Below, piece after piece: positions 11,321 through 49,090 of a DNA stretch of 64,000 nucleotides. The stretch is taken from positions 124,001 to 188,000 of the forward strand of contig CAIRDP010000063.1 of assembly GCA_903877385.1 (NCBI GenBank), written 5' to 3'. Made by a program: the position numbers and the translations under genes. Within the stretch, counting starts at the first letter, position 1. Each line of letters opens with the position of its first letter. The notes beneath the pieces are model-generated. The model was not told the DNA's origin. It was given only the letters and a program-made list of their open reading frames with translations, and did not search any database. This stretch comes from an uncultured Bacteroidales bacterium. Its GTDB lineage: Bacteria > Bacteroidota > Bacteroidia > Bacteroidales > FEN-979.

Positions 11321-11385
11321 AAGTTATACGTTTAAATGCTAAACTGATAACTTACAACAGAGGCATGCTTTAAAGTGATACTCTT

Positions 11386-11460
11386 GTCCCTACGCCGGCA
11401 TTATCCGGATCAGGTTCAGAGGGTATGATCTCAGCCCGTATTTTAAGGCACCCCTATTGG
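11386..11460 (-). promoter_or_regulatory. TPP riboswitch (THI element)
   Basis: Read on the minus strand, the conserved parts appear in order: GGGGTGCC, GGGCTGAGAT, ACCCTCTGAACCTGATCC, GGATAATGCCGGCGTAGGGA. This is the classic thi-box aptamer. It sits 66 bp upstream of the TonB receptor start. A TAnnTTTG box (minus strand TATCTTTG, 11471-11478) lies just upstream, so the aptamer would be almost at the 5' end of the transcript. Expected to switch the receptor off when thiamine pyrophosphate is abundant. Confidence 0.96.
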
Positions 11461-11470
11461 AAAGTTGAAA

Positions 11471-11478
11471 CAAAGATA
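11471..11478 (-). promoter_or_regulatory. -7 box for the TonB receptor/TPP riboswitch transcript
   Basis: Minus-strand TATCTTTG fits TAnnTTTG. Predicted transcription start is near 11464, a few nucleotides before the aptamer. No good TTG at 19-nt spacing was found. Confidence 0.55.
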
Positions 11479-18133: not shown

Positions 18134-18222
18134 GGAGAGATGCCAGAGCGGTCGAATGGGGCGGTCTCGAAAACCGTTGACCCTCGTAAGGGGGTCCCAG
18201 GGTTCGAATCCCTGTCTCTCCG
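18134..18222 (+). tRNA. tRNA-Ser (CGA), integration site of the element
   Basis: Class II tRNA: acceptor GGAGAGA/TCTCTCC, anticodon loop CTCGAAA (anticodon CGA), long variable arm with CCCTCGTAAGGGG, T-loop GGTTCGAATCC, discriminator G and no CCA. A -7 box TATTTTTG lies at 18111-18118. Its last 22 bases belong to the duplicated att core, so the integrated element keeps the gene intact. Confidence 0.96.
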
Positions 18223-18224
18223 CA
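18201..18224 (+). repeat. attL core (3' end of tRNA-Ser)
   Basis: 24 bp identical to 49067-49090: T-arm and acceptor end of tRNA-Ser(CGA) plus two bases. Flanking bases differ on both sides. Confidence 0.95.
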
Positions 18225-18482: not shown

Positions 18483-19733
18483 ATGAAAAATTCTTTGTCT
18501 ATTCTTTTTTACCTCAGGAGAAGCAAAGTCCCTGAAAATGAGAAGGCACCAATTTACATGAGGATTACAGTAAATGGCAGGAGGGTGGACCTGGCAACTC
18601 ATCAGTTTATTGAAGCAGAAAGGTGGGATTCCCAGCATGGATGCATCAAAGGAACAAAAGAGGATGCGAGGACCATCAATACCAGCCTTGATAATAAAAG
18701 GTCACATGTTCTTAAAATATTCACGCAGCTTGAAACAACAGGTAAAACCATCACGGCAGAAATCATTCGGAATCACTTTTTAGGGAAGATGATAAACCGT
18801 CACTCATTGGTGGAAGTATTCAAATTGTATAACAAGCAGCTTGCTGCTAAGGTCGGTCAGGGTTATGCAAAAGGGACTCTTACCAAGTATACAGCAACAT
18901 GTAACAAGGTAGAAGGTTTTATCCGGTTCCAGTTTAAAAGGTCTGATGTATTTCTTGATGAATTGGACTATCAGTTCATCACTAACTATGATCTTTACCT
19001 CAGGTCAGAGCTCAGTAATGTCCAGAACACCGTTTCAAAGTCGATTTCCTTTCTGAAAAAGATCATACATTATAGTATATATAATGGATGGTTGGATAAA
19101 GATCCTTTTACTTCTTTCCGTTGCCCGTATAAAGACCCAGAACGAGATTTCTTAACGGAAGATGAGTTGGATAAGATGCAAAACAAAGAGATTGAGATTA
19201 ACCGCCTTTCCATAGTTAGAGATATGTATGTTTTCTCTTGTTTCACCGGTTTGCCGTTTTCTGATATTGAAAAAATGACCCCTGGAGACATCTCAATAGG
19301 TATTGATGGTGGTAAATGGATAGTTTATAATCGTACCAAGACGGGAAATCGTGCTCCGATACCATTATTACCGATACCATTAGGTATTATAGAGAAGTAT
19401 AAGAATTACCAGGTGAATGTGAGTAAGGGAAGGCTCCTGCCGGTTTATTCCAACCAAAAGATAAATGCTTACCTGAAGGAATTAGCTGATATCTGCAAAA
19501 TTGATAAGGAGCTTACCTTTCATACTGCCCGTCATACGTTTGCTACGACGGTAACACTTACAAACGGTGTTCCTATTGAAACGGTGAGTAAGATGCTTGG
19601 CCATACTTCAATAAAGACAACACAGATATATAGTAAGGTGGTAGATCGTAAGGTCAGTGATGATATGAAGGTGTTAAAGGAACGTATGGCAAATAAACAG
19701 CCATCTAAGAGTTCTAAAGTTGTAGGTATGTAA
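18483..19733 (+). CDS. Tyrosine recombinase/integrase of the element
   Basis: 416 residues, usual for Bacteroidota integrases. An N-terminal Arm-DNA-binding domain (LRRSKVPENEKAPIYMRITV), a SAM-like core-binding domain (about 110-210), and a catalytic domain with HTARHTFA (H-x-x-R), LGHTSIKTTQIYSKV and nucleophile Tyr383. The usual first catalytic Arg (TGLR in many relatives) is Pro here (CFTGLPFSDIEKM); loss of that residue is also known for CTnDOT IntDOT. It should integrate the element into, and with help excise it from, the tRNA-Ser 3' end. Located next to attL. Confidence 0.95.
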   Translation: MKNSLSILFYLRRSKVPENEKAPIYMRITVNGRRVDLATHQFIEAERWDSQHGCIKGTKEDARTINTSLDNKRSHVLKIFTQLETTGKTITAEIIRNHFLGKMINRHSLVEVFKLYNKQLAAKVGQGYAKGTLTKYTATCNKVEGFIRFQFKRSDVFLDELDYQFITNYDLYLRSELSNVQNTVSKSISFLKKIIHYSIYNGWLDKDPFTSFRCPYKDPERDFLTEDELDKMQNKEIEINRLSIVRDMYVFSCFTGLPFSDIEKMTPGDISIGIDGGKWIVYNRTKTGNRAPIPLLPIPLGIIEKYKNYQVNVSKGRLLPVYSNQKINAYLKELADICKIDKELTFHTARHTFATTVTLTNGVPIETVSKMLGHTSIKTTQIYSKVVDRKVSDDMKVLKERMANKQPSKSSKVVGM

Positions 19734-36639: not shown

Positions 36640-37152
36640 ATGGCCGATATCAATCTGCTGGCTCCAAAAATATTTAAATGGGAGGGAGGCTTTGTTGATG
36701 ATCCTAGGGATCATGGTGGAGCAACCAATATGGGAGTTACTATTTCCACATGGCGACAGGTAGGCTATGATAAAGACGGAGATGGCGACATAGACCGTGA
36801 GGATATTAAACTCCTTACCAAGTCAGATGCAATCCTTGTTCTCAAAAAGTTCTATTGGGATCGATGGCAGGCCGATAGTATCAATAACCAGGCAATTGCA
36901 GATATCCTGGTTGATTGGCTCTGGTGCAGTGGTAAATGGGGGATAACCATACCACAGAGGACTCTTGGAGTTCCAGTCGATGGAATTGTAGGCCCGGTAA
37001 CAATTTCCAGGGTTAATAATTCCAATCCATACCAGCTAAAGATAAAAATATACAACCTCCGTGTTGCCTTCATCCGTAATATTATCACCAAAGATCCATC
37101 CCAGAAGAGATTTGAAAACTGCTGGTTACGCCGGCTTAATGATTTTTTATAA
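36640..37152 (+). CDS. Endolysin, glycoside hydrolase 108 (N-acetylmuramidase)
   Basis: 170 residues. FKWEGGFVDDPRDHGGATNM carries the GH108 catalytic Glu (WEGG) and the GGATNMGVT motif. A peptidoglycan-binding-like C-terminus (IPQRTLGVPVDGIVGPVTIS) follows. Cleaves host peptidoglycan for release of particles. No signal peptide, so it needs the upstream holin. Confidence 0.95.
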   Translation: MADINLLAPKIFKWEGGFVDDPRDHGGATNMGVTISTWRQVGYDKDGDGDIDREDIKLLTKSDAILVLKKFYWDRWQADSINNQAIADILVDWLWCSGKWGITIPQRTLGVPVDGIVGPVTISRVNNSNPYQLKIKIYNLRVAFIRNIITKDPSQKRFENCWLRRLNDFL

Positions 37153-37162
37153 AATTTCCTGC

Positions 37163-37597
37163 ATGAGGCTTTTAATTAAGGTTCTTTTCACGATTATTCT
37201 CTGTCTGTTAGCAGGTTGTTCTCCCTCATACCGATTAAACCGTCTTCTTACCTTGCATCCTGAGTTAAAGGTTCCAGATACACTTTTGATACGGGATTCC
37301 CTTATAGTTCCCCAAATCCAAACCGACACCATCCTCCGTCTCAGCACCCTCCACGACACCGTCACCCTCCACAAAGACCATCTCCAGGTCAAAATCCACC
37401 GCCTCCGCGACACAATCTACATCCAAAGCAAAACCCTTCCTGACACCATCTTCATCACACGCCGAATCCCTATCCAATTAATCAAGTATGTCCAACCTGA
37501 TACACTCGATCATTTCATCAGTAAAATCCCTTGGATTGTAATAGCTATCATCTTCATTATTGGCTTTGTTATTTTCCTCTTTATTCGCTTCAGATAG
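37163..37597 (+). CDS. Spanin-like lipoprotein with C-terminal membrane anchor
   Basis: 144 residues. The ATG at 37163 is 10 bp after the endolysin stop and starts a signal peptide with lipobox LLAGCSPS. The middle is Asp/Thr/His-rich with regular HDTV- and DTI-type repeats, and the C-terminus is a membrane segment (WIVIAIIFIIGFVIFLFI). Two anchors and a rod-like middle suit a unimolecular spanin that fuses outer and inner membrane at lysis. The in-frame upstream ATG (37061) would overlap the endolysin and was rejected. Confidence 0.65.
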   Translation: MRLLIKVLFTIILCLLAGCSPSYRLNRLLTLHPELKVPDTLLIRDSLIVPQIQTDTILRLSTLHDTVTLHKDHLQVKIHRLRDTIYIQSKTLPDTIFITRRIPIQLIKYVQPDTLDHFISKIPWIVIAIIFIIGFVIFLFIRFR

Positions 37598-37666: not shown

Positions 37667-37674
37667 TAACTTTG
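37667..37674 (+). promoter_or_regulatory. -7 box of the fluoride operon
   Basis: TAACTTTG fits TAnnTTTG. Predicted transcription start (about 37680) falls on the first base of the aptamer. No TTG at 19-nt spacing, so the promoter may be weak or need an activator. Confidence 0.6.
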
Positions 37675-37680
37675 CTTTTC

Positions 37681-37728
37681 GGTGATGGAGTTCACCTTAA
37701 ACCGCCTTCATAAGCTGATAACTCCTAC
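37681..37728 (+). promoter_or_regulatory. Fluoride riboswitch (crcB RNA)
   Basis: Matches the crcB-motif consensus: P1 hairpin GGTGATGGAGTTCACC (37681-37696), linker TTAAACCGCC, short stem around CTT/AAG (37706-37713), then GCTGATAACTCCTAC (37714-37728). GGAGT in the P1 loop can pair with ACTCC to form the pseudoknot that encloses Mg2+ and F-. The aptamer ends 46 bp before crcB. The expression platform is unclear: an ATGCT/AGCAT hairpin (37737-37752) follows without a T-run, so control may act on translation. Confidence 0.95.
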
Positions 37729-37736
37729 TTTAATTG

Positions 37737-37778
37737 ATGCTGGTTTTAGCATGTAAAGTAATGTTCAGCTTGTTATGA
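37737..37778 (+). CDS. Possible 13-codon leader ORF coupled to crcB
   Basis: ATG at 37737 opens MLVLACKVMFSLL and its TGA (37776-37778) overlaps the crcB start as ATGA. It begins 9 bp after the aptamer. Such overlap allows translational coupling; whether it is translated is unknown. Confidence 0.4.
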   Translation: MLVLACKVMFSLL

Positions 37779-38155
37779 TAAGATTAATCCTGATTGTTGG
37801 TTTGGGCGGTTTCTTTGGAACCGTTTCCCGTTTTCTTACTTCCCGCTATCTTCAAAACCTGTTTCCTTCTACGTTCCCTCTTGGTACGTTTATTGTGAAT
37901 GTTACAGGTTGTTTGCTCATTGGGATTTTTTATGGACTTTCACAGAAAGGGAATATCTTAAACCCTGAGTGGAGAATGTTCTTAACTGTTGGATTTTGTG
38001 GTGGGTTCACAACCTTTTCTACATTTGCCGGTGAAAATGTCGCACTTTTGAGAGATGGGAATGTTTTTTATTTTTCGTTGTATGCCGGTCTGAGTGTTTT
38101 TGTCGGTCTTATGGCAACTTATTTTGGCAATTCAATCATTGTAAAAATATTGTAA
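37775..38155 (+). CDS. crcB: Fluoride channel CrcB/Fluc
   Basis: 126 residues, four membrane helices, normal length for the dual-topology Fluc dimer. Motifs: GLGGFFGTVSRFLTSRYLQN (conserved Arg), FIVNVTGCLLIGI (pore Asn), and GFCGGFTTFSTFAGE (the Phe box, bound Na+ site). It lets cytoplasmic fluoride leave down its gradient. First gene of the operon, behind the fluoride riboswitch, and 1 bp before the DUF190 gene. Confidence 0.97.
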   Translation: MIRLILIVGLGGFFGTVSRFLTSRYLQNLFPSTFPLGTFIVNVTGCLLIGIFYGLSQKGNILNPEWRMFLTVGFCGGFTTFSTFAGENVALLRDGNVFYFSLYAGLSVFVGLMATYFGNSIIVKIL

Positions 38156-38156
38156 A

Positions 38157-38525
38157 ATGGAAATCACAGGTGAAGCAAAATTGTTGAGGATATTCGTTAG
38201 CTCAACCGACAAGTTCAAACATACACCATTATATGAGGTGGTGGTTTTTGCTGCCAAACGGTATGGCCTGGCCGGGGCAACAGTATTAAAAGGGTTCATG
38301 GGTTATGGCGTCAGTAGTCAAATTGTTTCTCAAAAACTTTGGGAAATATCAGAGAAGATGCCCATGGTTATAGAGATTGTTGATGAATCTGCGAAAATTG
38401 ATGGTTTTGTGGAAACGATTCTGCCCTACTTCGAAAAGGTCCCCAAAGGTGGAATGATTACGCTTGAAAAAGTTACTATCGTGTTACATAAATCAGGAAC
38501 AAAAAAGAGTTTTTTTCAACTATAA
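38157..38525 (+). CDS. DUF190 protein
   Basis: 122 residues, PII-like ferredoxin fold expected: LRIFVSSTDKFKHTPLYEVV, FAAKRYGLAGATVLKGFMGYG, VIEIVDESAKIDGFVETILP. DUF190 proteins are often next to or fused to CrcB, and may regulate or bind the channel (no established mechanism). Starts one base after the crcB stop, so co-translated. Confidence 0.92.
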   Translation: MEITGEAKLLRIFVSSTDKFKHTPLYEVVVFAAKRYGLAGATVLKGFMGYGVSSQIVSQKLWEISEKMPMVIEIVDESAKIDGFVETILPYFEKVPKGGMITLEKVTIVLHKSGTKKSFFQL

Positions 38526-38537
38526 ATTTAAATCGCT

Positions 38538-39821
38538 ATGAAGATAAAATCGGTAAAAGCAATGGAAATCCTCGATTCAAGAGGAAATCCAACAGTAGAA
38601 GTTAATCTGAAACTTGAGAATGGAATTTCAGCACGTGCAATGGTCCCCAGTGGAGCCTCCACCGGCGAACGTGAGGCTTGTGAGCTTCGCGATGGTGATA
38701 AAAAACGTTATGGCGGTAAAGGGGTACTTAAGGCTGTTGAGAATGTCAATAGCAAGATTGCCAGTGAACTTGAAGGCAAATGTTTCTCGAACCAGAGGGA
38801 ATTGGATTATTTGATGATTGGCCTTGATGGAACACCTAATAAATCTGCGTTGGGCGCAAATGCAATTTTAGCAGTATCTATGGCGTATGCCCGTGCAGCT
38901 GCAATCAACGCGGGGATTCCTTTGTACCAGTATCTTGGTGGCAGCAATGCTTACCTCTTACCTGTCCCCTGTATGAATATCATCAACGGCGGTAAACATG
39001 CCGATAACAATGTCGACTTCCAGGAGTTTATGATTGCCCCTCATGGAGCCAATTCATTTAAGGAGTCTATCCGCATAGGTATCGAAGTGTTCCATACGTT
39101 GAAATCAGTTTTAAAAGTAAAGAACTATAGCACGGGTGTGGGTGATGAAGGTGGTTTTGCTCCCAATCTTAAATCAAATGAGGAAGCAGTGGATGTGATC
39201 CTCGAAGCGATCGTTAAGGCAGGATATAAACCCGGGGAACAGGTTAGCATTTGTCTGGATCCTGCCGCCAGTGAACTCTGGGAAGATGGAAAATATAAGA
39301 TGTTTAAAAGTACCGGTAAATTTCTTTCCAGTGATGAGATGGTAAAACTCTGGGAAAACTGGGTACATCAATATCCTATTGTATTGCTTGAAGACGGTCT
39401 TGCTGAAAATGACTGGAATGGTTGGCAGAATCTGACCAGGGTTCTTGGTAACAGGATAGAGATTGTTGGGGATGATATCTTCTGTACCAACAAAGCTATT
39501 CTGGCTGAAGGAATCAGCAAAGGAGTTGCCAATTCCATCCTGATTAAACTTAACCAAATCGGAACAGTTACAGAAACACTTGAGACCATTGAACTTGCGT
39601 ACAAGAATAAGTACAATGCATTTGTCTCCCACCGCAGCGGAGAAACTCCCGATAGTTTTATTGCTGACCTTACGGTTGCTGTAAATGCCGGTCATCTGAA
39701 AACCGGAAGTGGTTGCAGGGGTGAACGTATTGAGAAATTCAACCAGCTAATGCGTATCGAAAATGAATTGGGTAAAACATCACGGTTCGCCGGTAAAGCT
39801 GCTTTCAGGAATGTTGTCTAA
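38538..39821 (+). CDS. eno: Enolase, element-borne
   Basis: 427 residues, full length. It converts 2-phosphoglycerate to phosphoenolpyruvate. Seen: [92 protein letters not shown] (catalytic His, Arg, Ser) and [18 protein letters not shown]. Active-site motifs are kept. The usual (S/A)R(S/T)(D/E)R after GS is CRGER, and the E of GGEHADN is K. Enolase is a classic fluoride target (F- with phosphate and Mg2+), and eno is known in some fluoride-riboswitch operons. It could be a reserve or fluoride-tolerant enzyme (inference). Confidence 0.97.
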
Positions 39822-39840
39822 TATTAACTGATGAGATTGT

Positions 39841-39869
39841 CCCGTAAGCATAAATTAATTGTTTACGGG
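39841..39869 (+). promoter_or_regulatory. Intercistronic hairpin between eno and the GTPase gene
   Basis: CCCGTAA (39841-39847) pairs with TTACGGG (39863-39869). No T-run follows, so it is a stability or processing element rather than a terminator. Confidence 0.45.
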
Positions 39870-39892
39870 TCATCTTATCATGAAAACTAATA

Positions 39893-41527
39893 ATGAACAC
39901 GCCTGTCGAAATCATCGATGAAATCTCCGGTATAAACAGGGCAATAGGTGCACCTGATATCTCCAGGCCTGTTTATGAATTACTTCAAGCGGCTGATAAA
40001 AGCATTTTCGTTGCAGTGCTCGGTCAATTCAAATCCGGGAAAAGTTCATTGATCAATAGCCTTATCGGTGAGGATCTGTTACCCGTCGGTGTTCTTCCTC
40101 TTACAGCCATCGTGACCCGTCTTCGATATGGAATTCAACCCCGGCTCATTATCCGCTATCTTGATAAGCGTGAAGATATCACTCTGCTGGATGTACTGCC
40201 AGCCTATGTTACTGAAAATCTGAATCCGGGTAACGCCAGAAAAGTGGCTCAGGTTATTATTGAGCATCCAGGGCTGGAATCCTTCAGGAATATTAACCTG
40301 GTAGACACTCCCGGATTGGGGAGCTTTTATCGTCACAACACCGAAACCACAAATAATTGGCTGCCGTTCACCGGTATGGGGATTATCAGTGTAAGTGCCG
40401 AACGTCCTCTTTCAGAGGAGGATCTTAACCTGATAAAAGAGACTTCCCGTTATTGTCCCAACCTTGCTATAGTCATCACAAAAGCAGACCTGGTAAATGA
40501 AAAAGCATTACCGGAATTGTCAACTTTCATTCAAGGTGCTGTAGATGTGGCAATTGGTGAAAACATCCCTGTTTTTACCTATTCGATCATAAAAGATCAG
40601 GAGGGTTGCCGATCAAATATTCTGAATAATTTGTTAATCCCTTTAAACCTTAACTCCGACCAACATCTCCATCGTATTCTGCAGCACAAACTTCAATCCA
40701 TTATCAAGCAAAGCCGGTCATGGGTTGAACTGGCTCTGCGGTCTGCAATGGAACGTGAAGCCGGCAAGGATTCGGTGACCCAATTAGTACAGGGACTGAA
40801 GGATAATTTTCATCATCACCAGGCTGAGATGCTATTGACGGCATCTTCTTTTAAGGGCAATGTCAGAACAAAACTTGAGAAGATTTATCTTCCTTTAACC
40901 GTGTTGATAAATCAGAACATTATCAGCCAATTCAATGATGATTATAATAACTGGCATGGCTCGTTGTCTAAAGTTTCCGGTAAATATGAGTCCTGGATAA
41001 AAATGAAATTACGTAATGAGATTGCCTCTATTGATACGGATTCTGTTGAACTGATTAACCAAATCTCCAGGGAAACAGCTAATTATTTTCAATATGTTGC
41101 GGGCCGTTTCAGGCAAATGCTTGACGATAAGCTATTTTTTGCCTTAGGTGTTCATCTTTCTGAGTCTGATTGGCAGATAGAATTTCCTGAATTTGAATTA
41201 CCGGATATTTCGATTTACCGGGCGTTCGATACTCACCTTGATATGTTTCTCTTTTTTCTCCCGATGGCCTGGTTCCGGAAATTTTTCGAAAATCATTTCC
41301 GCAGTCAGATCCCGATTGAAATTGAGAAAAATCTATATCGTCATATGTCAGATCTTACCGATAAGATCAATAAAGCTACTGATATCATTCATAAACAAGC
41401 ACTGAATTATATCAGCCGTGAGATGATAACAGTGGAGAATATCCTTGAAAGTATAAACACCAATGCATCAACCTTGAATTACTATCTGAACCGTTTGGAT
41501 GAACTTAAATCTTTAGAATATGCCTGA
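39893..41527 (+). CDS. Bacterial dynamin-like GTPase
   Basis: 544 residues. N-terminal GTPase domain: G1 GQFKSGKSSLINSLIGE, G2 LTAIVTRLRYG, G3 LVDTPGLGSFYRHN, G4 TKAD. A long helical part follows (about 270-540), with a hydrophobic stretch around residues 440-460 (MFLFFLPMAWFRKFFENHFR) that could be a membrane paddle. Bacterial dynamins act on the inner membrane (fusion, repair, stress protection). The stop overlaps the antiporter start by 8 bp, suggesting a joint membrane role. Confidence 0.88.
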   Translation: MNTPVEIIDEISGINRAIGAPDISRPVYELLQAADKSIFVAVLGQFKSGKSSLINSLIGEDLLPVGVLPLTAIVTRLRYGIQPRLIIRYLDKREDITLLDVLPAYVTENLNPGNARKVAQVIIEHPGLESFRNINLVDTPGLGSFYRHNTETTNNWLPFTGMGIISVSAERPLSEEDLNLIKETSRYCPNLAIVITKADLVNEKALPELSTFIQGAVDVAIGENIPVFTYSIIKDQEGCRSNILNNLLIPLNLNSDQHLHRILQHKLQSIIKQSRSWVELALRSAMEREAGKDSVTQLVQGLKDNFHHHQAEMLLTASSFKGNVRTKLEKIYLPLTVLINQNIISQFNDDYNNWHGSLSKVSGKYESWIKMKLRNEIASIDTDSVELINQISRETANYFQYVAGRFRQMLDDKLFFALGVHLSESDWQIEFPEFELPDISIYRAFDTHLDMFLFFLPMAWFRKFFENHFRSQIPIEIEKNLYRHMSDLTDKINKATDIIHKQALNYISREMITVENILESINTNASTLNYYLNRLDELKSLEYA

Positions 41528-42728
41528 TAACATATGGCTGATTGCCGCGATATGGATGGGATTGGCCTTTATTGCAAGCCTGATTTCTATAAGAATTGGG
41601 ATTTCTGTGGCCCTTATCGAGATCCTGATTGGGGTGATTGCCGGCAATTTCCTTGGAATCCATGGCACAACCCAATGGATTGATTTCCTTGCTATGCTTG
41701 GCAGTGGTGTACTTACATTTCTTGCCGGGGCCGAGATTGACCCTGCGTCCTTAAAAGCAAATTTAAAAGCAAGCCTTTCTATCGGCATTTTATCCTTCCT
41801 GATTCCCTTTTTAAGTGTCTGGCTGATTGCCCAGTTTGTTTTTGGCTGGGGTCTTCATCAGGCTCAGATCGCAGGAATTGCTCTTTCTACAACCTCTGTA
41901 GCAGTTGTGTATGCTGTGATGATCGAAAAGAAGTTAGGTGATACATCCATGGGTAAAATGATCCTGGCGGCTTGTTTCATTACCGATTTCGGCACTGTAC
42001 TTGCTCTTGGCGTATTGTTTGCCGATTTTAATATCTGGATGATCGTGTTCGTCGTAGTCATGTGTATAATGCTGTGGTTCATGCCCAGATGGACCAAATA
42101 CCTGATTGGTCATCTTGGTGCGAATAAGGTAAGCCAGCCTGAAGTTAAATTCATTCTATTGGTCTTGTTTTTCCTGGGTGGACTGGCGACTACCGCAAAA
42201 AGTGAGGCAGTGTTACCGGCATACCTTATCGGGCTGGTGGTTGCCGGCGTATTTGTTCAGGATAAGATTCTTGTTGACAGGATGAGAACTATTGCATTTA
42301 CCATCTTTACACCATTCTATTTTATTAAAGCAGGTTTGTATGTGTCTTTGCCGGTAATATGGTTTTCACTTGGAATCATTTTAATACTGTTATCTGCAAA
42401 AGTCCTTACAAAAGTTGCCGGTGTTTATCCCCTGGCACGTATCTTTCAGATGAGAAAGAAGGAGGCAAGTTATACAACTCTCCTTATGGCAACCGGATTA
42501 ACTTTTGGGACGATTTCCGCCCTTTTTGGATTGAACAACCATATCATCGACCAGAAGCAGTATACAATCCTTGTTACTGTAGTTATTCTTAGTGCAATTG
42601 TTCCTACTCTCTTTGCACAGAAATTCTTTCAACCTGAAATCAATACCATGATTGCATGGGGCAGACTCAGGAAACTAAGTCAATCCCGTCGGAAACCGAA
42701 AAATAAACGGAGGAAATATCATGTATAA
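41520..42728 (+). CDS. Cation:proton antiporter (CPA2/KefB-NhaP-like)
   Basis: 402 residues, about 12 membrane helices and no RCK tail. FLAGAEIDPASLKANLKASL, GIALSTTSVAVVYAVMIEKK, FITDFGTVLALGVLFADF and LMATGLTFGTISALFGL fit the CPA2 core with an Asp-containing unwound helix (FITDF). It exchanges Na+, K+ or another cation for H+. Na+/H+ antiporters are known members of fluoride regulons; proton balance matters because fluoride enters as HF. Overlaps the dynamin-like gene by 8 bp and the usp gene by 8 bp. Confidence 0.9.
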   Translation: MPDNIWLIAAIWMGLAFIASLISIRIGISVALIEILIGVIAGNFLGIHGTTQWIDFLAMLGSGVLTFLAGAEIDPASLKANLKASLSIGILSFLIPFLSVWLIAQFVFGWGLHQAQIAGIALSTTSVAVVYAVMIEKKLGDTSMGKMILAACFITDFGTVLALGVLFADFNIWMIVFVVVMCIMLWFMPRWTKYLIGHLGANKVSQPEVKFILLVLFFLGGLATTAKSEAVLPAYLIGLVVAGVFVQDKILVDRMRTIAFTIFTPFYFIKAGLYVSLPVIWFSLGIILILLSAKVLTKVAGVYPLARIFQMRKKEASYTTLLMATGLTFGTISALFGLNNHIIDQKQYTILVTVVILSAIVPTLFAQKFFQPEINTMIAWGRLRKLSQSRRKPKNKRRKYHV

Positions 42729-43146
42729 CAACATTTTAGTGGCTTATGATGGTTCCGAGGGAGCCAAAAAAGCAATGCAGAATGCTCTCGATCTTGCAAA
42801 AGCGATGGGGGCAAAGATCACCGCCCTTTGGGTAGGTGGTTTCCGGCCCTATTATCATGAAACCGTGGCCGAGATCGATGAAGAGAACAAGGCCATAGAC
42901 CAATTTTCAGCGAAACTGAAAAAGGAATTAAAATCTGTCTCACTGCAGGCGGGGATTGAGATTGAATTTGCTCACCTGCAGGGGAATCCTGCAAAACTCA
43001 TCGCTCAGTATGCCGAAAAAAACAAAATTGACCTTATCGTTATTGGTTGCAAGGGGCATTCTGGTATATGGGGTAATGACCTTGGTCATGTAACTGACAA
43101 GGTAAGTGAGAATGCGAAATGCAATGTGCTTATTTCACGTAAATAA
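42721..43146 (+). CDS. Universal stress protein (UspA family)
   Basis: 141 residues. NILVAYDGSEGAKKAMQNAL at the N-terminus and GCKGHSGIWGNDLGHVTDKV with the G-(2x)-G-(9x)-G-type ATP-binding loop, then NVLISRK at the end. Cytoplasmic stress protein that may bind ATP and regulate the antiporter upstream (inference; Usp domains are linked to CPA antiporters). Usp genes are also reported in fluoride-riboswitch operons. Starts within the antiporter gene (8-bp overlap). Confidence 0.95.
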   Translation: MYNNILVAYDGSEGAKKAMQNALDLAKAMGAKITALWVGGFRPYYHETVAEIDEENKAIDQFSAKLKKELKSVSLQAGIEIEFAHLQGNPAKLIAQYAEKNKIDLIVIGCKGHSGIWGNDLGHVTDKVSENAKCNVLISRK

Positions 43147-49066: not shown

Positions 49067-49090
49067 GGTTCGAATCCCTGTCTCTCCGCA
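49067..49090 (+). repeat. attR core
   Basis: 24 bp identical to the tRNA-Ser(CGA) 3' end at 18201-18224, without the rest of the tRNA. Confidence 0.95.

Follow-up and report, generated by a model that had tools for sequence, protein, structure and literature searches.

Within the window, by which we mean the whole 64-kb stretch of DNA analysed here, a fluoride operon is encoded on the + strand by the following genes:

37775..38155, + strand: crcB, Fluc fluoride channel (PF02537, E 4e-31)
38157..38525, + strand: DUF190 protein (PF02641, E 8.8e-30)
38538..39821, + strand: enolase (PF00113/PF03952)
39893..41527, + strand: dynamin-like GTPase (PF00350, E 1.8e-21)
41520..42728, + strand: Na+/H+ exchanger (PF00999, E 9.2e-40)
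42721..43146, + strand: universal stress protein (PF00582, E 9.1e-29)

Genes reported to accompany fluoride riboswitches include exporters, Na+/H+ antiporters and enolase (PMC11139923), and judged by its predicted genes the content of the operon matches that of known fluoride operons. No CrcB family member other than its crcB (37775..38155) was found in the genome, and its enolase (38538..39821) is a second copy, 84% identical to the other copy on contig C27. The whole operon lies in an element of 30.9 kb (18201-49090), which is delimited as follows:

18201..18224, + strand: left attachment repeat, the 3' end of tRNA-Ser(CGA) 18134-18223
18483..19733, + strand: tyrosine integrase of the element (PF17293, PF13102, PF00589)
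49067..49090, + strand: right attachment repeat, identical 24 bp

The 24-bp repeat is exact at 18201-18224 and 49067-49090 and occurs nowhere else in the genome; between its two copies lie terminase, portal and endolysin genes, an Eco57I-type methylase and the fluoride operon. Five congeners share the left gene and tRNA-Ser(CGA); wherever one stretch covers both sides, the right flank follows after a few kilobases, and the phage genes and fluoride operon are absent from all five congener stretches. Genome G001 retains an integrase piece only (the first 105 residues, 95% identical). An integrase by a tRNA gene, a direct repeat and relatives without the genes thus identify an integrated mobile element, and since the operon lies within its att boundaries and includes the genome's only crcB, switch and operon are mobile cargo, a case in which a complete fluoride-resistance operon is carried by an integrated element. 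The segment may conceivably have arisen in two steps; a single att pair was found. The congeners have crcB elsewhere, as crcB-DUF190 in the three examined, where no aptamer is visible upstream of it, and no RF01734 match was found in the congeners. Searches of phage genome records for CrcB and of IMG/VR for a relative of the window CrcB found none. L310, a related viral contig, shares the block of genes from terminase to a 405-aa gene and ends short of the place of the fluoride operon.

Upstream of crcB lies the riboswitch, whose parts are:

37672..37734, + strand: fluoride riboswitch aptamer (RF01734 match), transcribed portion from about 37679
37681..37696, + strand: P1 stem-loop, GGTG 37681-37684 / CACC 37693-37696, loop GGAGT 37687-37691
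37721..37725, + strand: pseudoknot 3' strand ACTCC, partner of the P1 loop GGAGT 37687-37691
A37718 and U37726, + strand: linchpin-equivalent bases, by alignment to the A40-U48 linchpin pair described in a fluoride riboswitch (PMC11077080)

A full Rfam scan of the 64-kb window returned one fluoride riboswitch, the RF01734 match at 37672-37734 (+), with 56.7 bits against a gathering threshold of 34 and an E-value of 4.6e-13 calculated over the 64-kb window, which is far above chance level. An initial annotation, made from the letters of the sequence, had predicted that a covariance search with RF01734 around the aptamer would be significant, as it proved to be, and it had correctly read the start of P1 at 37681 and the presence of both the loop GGAGT and its pseudoknot partner ACTCC. 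The window switch is a further member of the established class RF01734, which it resembles in its aptamer sequence, in P1, the pseudoknot and the conserved segments, and in its crcB/enolase/antiporter operon, and from which it differs in a weak P3, a Bacteroidota sigma-A promoter and a platform that apparently ends at the AUG and not in a terminator. In the RF01734 alignment P3 is weak and short, with two G-C pairs, one C-A mismatch and one U-A. Such a P3, only a few pairs long and mismatched, would suit a decayed aptamer that has lost its fluoride response, as would the orthologue L219, in which an intact box is followed by a truncated remnant of the aptamer; yet a score of 56.7 bits, a P1, a pseudoknot and a conserved 3' segment that are all intact, the intact operon and compensatory changes in the orthologue L271 make decay a very improbable reading of the window locus.

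The aptamer is preceded at close range by a putative promoter:

37667..37674, + strand: -7 promoter box TAACTTTG, Bacteroidota sigma-A consensus TAnnTTTG
37679..37681, + strand: predicted transcription start, 37679 by the box rule, first purine 37681

In Flavobacterium psychrophilum the TAnnTTTG box has been mapped at -12 to -5 (PMC9723704), which would set +1 at about 37679 and leave a leader of 0-2 nt before P1. Position 37679 is a T, the first purine, G37681, is the first base of P1, and the box-to-P1 spacing is 6 nt. By itself the TAACTTTG box proves little, because TAnnTTTG occurs in the window at chance frequency (58 occurrences against 60 expected, the chance of an exact box within a given 16-nt stretch here being about 1.8%) and because no -33 TTG lies at 19-20 nt from the box, TTG being found only at spacings of 11 or 31 nt. 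A study of B. thetaiotaomicron mentions that Flavobacterium johnsoniae is a case where the -33 motif had not been found (PMC7366714). The box gains weight as the sole exact TAnnTTTG on the + strand between 30396 and 38019, and from the recurrence of equal spacing in relatives.

This spacing was compared across fluoride aptamers from Bacteroidota genomes and from multi-phylum loci gathered by exact P1 pattern. Of 90 Bacteroidota-type aptamers (a set that takes in a few Balneolota), 52 have a TAnnTTTG box whose end is no more than 16 nt from P1 on the upstream side, against 1.0 (maximum 5) in mononucleotide shuffles, which ignore phylogeny, while the surveyed loci are partly related and not independent. 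Counted over these 90 loci in 12-nt bins going upstream from P1, boxes number 45, 9, 1, 0, 1, 1, 3 and 1; spacing in the Bacteroidota-type loci ranges from 3 to 18 nt and falls in one locus below 4 nt, the limit at which P1 would start at +1. In the 108 loci from other phyla TAnnTTTG is no commoner than background, whereas 40 of them have TATAAT (5 of 6) at most 16 nt from P1, where 10.9 would be expected. The enrichment of both motifs near P1 points to a 5'-terminal aptamer as the rule, served by the promoter type of the host, and on this comparison the predicted 5'-terminal placement is normal for fluoride riboswitches generally and nothing special to the window locus. Put quantitatively, the aptamer begins some 0-14 nt from the predicted start, in keeping with the local promoter type.

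The window switch thus very probably starts its own transcript, as the box position and the survey suggest. The initial annotation had the -7 box end at 37674, as the sequence reads, and placed the start at about 37680 with the RNA opening with the switch, a proposal with which the estimated start and leader and the 90-aptamer comparison agree. A main transcript beginning far upstream, for instance by read-through from the phage lysis genes, would instead make the aptamer internal; the genes at 36640-37597 do run in the same direction, with no terminator found before 37667, and the putative promoter is missing its -33 element, but the box-to-P1 spacing recurs in Bacteroidota and in phyla with another promoter type, and no further + strand TAnnTTTG occurs back to 30395, so that we hold an internal aptamer to be quite improbable. 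The interval from the lysis genes upstream to the aptamer yielded no intrinsic terminator, so occasional read-through could lengthen the leader of a switch that would otherwise open its own RNA. No papers on the 5' ends of Bacteroidota fluoride riboswitches were found in the open library searched. The TPP riboswitch of the window (11369-11465, - strand, 70.1 bits) likewise shows tight promoter-aptamer spacing: a TATCTTTG box occupies 11471-11478 (-), some 5 nt ahead of the match.

Downstream of the aptamer, the region ahead of crcB is predicted to fold as follows:

37710..37773, + strand: predicted fluoride-free hairpin (minimum free energy fold; both helices kept in L271)
37710-37718 / 37765-37773, + strand: outer helix of the hairpin, AUAAGCUGA / UCAGCUUGU
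37726-37732 / 37754-37760, + strand: inner helix of the hairpin, UACUUUA / UAAAGUA

The minimum free energy structure of 37679-37800 (-26.2 kcal/mol) combines P1 with this two-layer hairpin, which takes in both linchpin bases, A37718 and U37726, and stops 1 nt short of the crcB AUG at 37775. The aptamer-held state is predicted at -17.8 kcal/mol, a value that leaves out pseudoknot and ligand energy, against -26.2 with the hairpin; keeping the aptamer open for the pseudoknot would cost 8.4 kcal/mol, a figure that does not yet include the contributions of pseudoknot, magnesium and fluoride. In the window sequence by itself the outer helix is not significant (7-nt run, p 0.06; best duplex, p 0.35), and shuffled platforms contain the two 6-mers in the right order at a frequency of 6e-5, for a motif picked post hoc. 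Because the complement between aptamer and platform is weak at the window locus alone, the case rests on an orthologue and on the survey. Among orthologues that have a switch, the closest (G830:C15, L218/L271), whose CrcB is 73% identical, has at L271:797-859 the same 6-nt box-P1 spacing, two compensatory changes in P1 relative to the window, and a GGAAT/ATTCC pseudoknot; both hairpin helices are kept around a different loop, support that comes from one orthologue and from helices that are unchanged, not covarying. Across 53 Bacteroidota platforms, a complement to the aptamer 3' half is found at p<=0.05 in 25, where 2.7 would be expected, and it mostly ends within about 15 nt of the AUG, near or inside the start codon region. 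At five of the surveyed loci (L017, L058, L094, L106 and L109) the first crcB codons, around Arg-3 AGG, hold the complement of the pseudoknot 3' strand, so that the platform hairpin would span the AUG itself; at L198, L202, L203, L207 and L210 the aptamer is 19-25 nt from the start codon and no competing hairpin was seen.

Transcription termination, intrinsic or Rho-dependent, could be the switching step instead, as in the Bacillus cereus crcB riboswitch, and a hairpin with a U-run does stand behind the aptamer at several Bacteroidota loci (L007, L038, L041, L054, L056 and L063), while a terminator-like stem lies just inside the window crcB at 37804-37826. The window hairpin (37726-37760), however, is followed by no U-run, the stretch 37700-37770 is not among the terminator-like sites, these number 9 in the region against 5.2 by chance, and the conserved outer strand reaches the AUG. 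A terminator platform at the window locus was rejected for want of a U-run behind the hairpin, and we regard termination as an unlikely switching step here. As the best account, we infer that the window switch likely controls translation, the switching itself being predicted from folding and comparison.

In the Bacillus cereus crcB riboswitch, a hairpin further downstream competes against the linchpin and the pseudoknot (PMC11077080). The window switch resembles this transcriptional system in the competition between aptamer and downstream hairpin, and differs from it in having no U-run and a competing strand that adjoins the start codon. Pseudomonas syringae and Burkholderia pseudomallei have fluoride riboswitches that have been named translational (PMC13273304). 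As named there, they would share with the window switch its probable step of control, whereas the competing strand of the window switch is aimed at the aptamer 3' half and there is no obvious Shine-Dalgarno sequence. Bacteroidota hardly use Shine-Dalgarno sequences, and the locus would offer a model for riboswitch translational control in a phylum where their use is scarce.

The operon at L271 is like that of the window in its identical order (crcB-DUF190-enolase-GTPase-Na/H exchanger-Usp), box spacing and platform, and differs in carrying a second fluoride aptamer in the gap from enolase to GTPase, where the window has no aptamer and a plain hairpin only. This long window hairpin, CCCGTAA...TTTACGGG, lies at 39838-39872 between the enolase and GTPase genes. 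An integrase gene (44% identical) stands just upstream of the L271 operon. In the crcB orthologue L219, an intact TACTTTTG box is followed by the shortened aptamer remnant GGCGATGACTCCTACTC, which looks as if deleted between two GATG repeats. In genomes G255 and G830 a fluoride aptamer precedes a short ORF and rteC (L303:3205-3530 and L271:18638-18950), rteC being PF09357 with 262.8 bits in L303 and shorter in L271, and at these loci a 10-bp complement, GCGACTGATA/TATCAGTCGC, lies just ahead of the ATG of the short ORF. RteC is a transfer regulator of CTnDOT-type elements, and through the rteC-linked aptamer fluoride might control element mobility.

Taken as a whole, a fluoride riboswitch leader with a 5'-terminal P1 and an AUG-proximal translational hairpin, carried on a phage-like element, is a model we hold with high confidence. 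A Bacteroidota sigma-A promoter (-7 box 37667-37674) would start the RNA at about 37679, directly at P1, as the comparison suggests, and with P1 in the lead the aptamer could fold before anything else, free of upstream RNA that might misfold it. With fluoride present, P1, P3, the GGAGU/ACUCC pseudoknot and the A37718-U37726 linchpin would keep the aptamer folded, leaving the region ahead of the crcB AUG free and the operon translated. Without fluoride, the aptamer 3' half would be pulled into the hairpin 37710-37773, both linchpin bases being taken, and a hairpin ending 1 nt before the AUG at 37775 would block translation, as folding and the one orthologue indicate. Promoter, switch and operon all lie within the integrated phage-like element 18201-49090.

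For a wider generalisation we see about even chances: that fluoride aptamers stand at the first transcribed bases in all sampled phyla, whatever the promoter type; that in Bacteroidota many of these aptamers switch translation through an AUG-side or AUG-crossing strand capturing the aptamer 3' half, here with both linchpin bases; and that the cassettes travel with phage-like and conjugative elements, some of them before the transfer regulator rteC. Elsewhere in the same genome, an RF01734 hit on contig C11 scored 23.2 bits, below the cut-off and with a poor P1, and was counted as chance. The second fluoride riboswitch of this genome (G000:C23; L002, L274:1758-2927) precedes a 389-aa protein which, by sequence appearance, resembles a CPA-type Na+/H+ antiporter.
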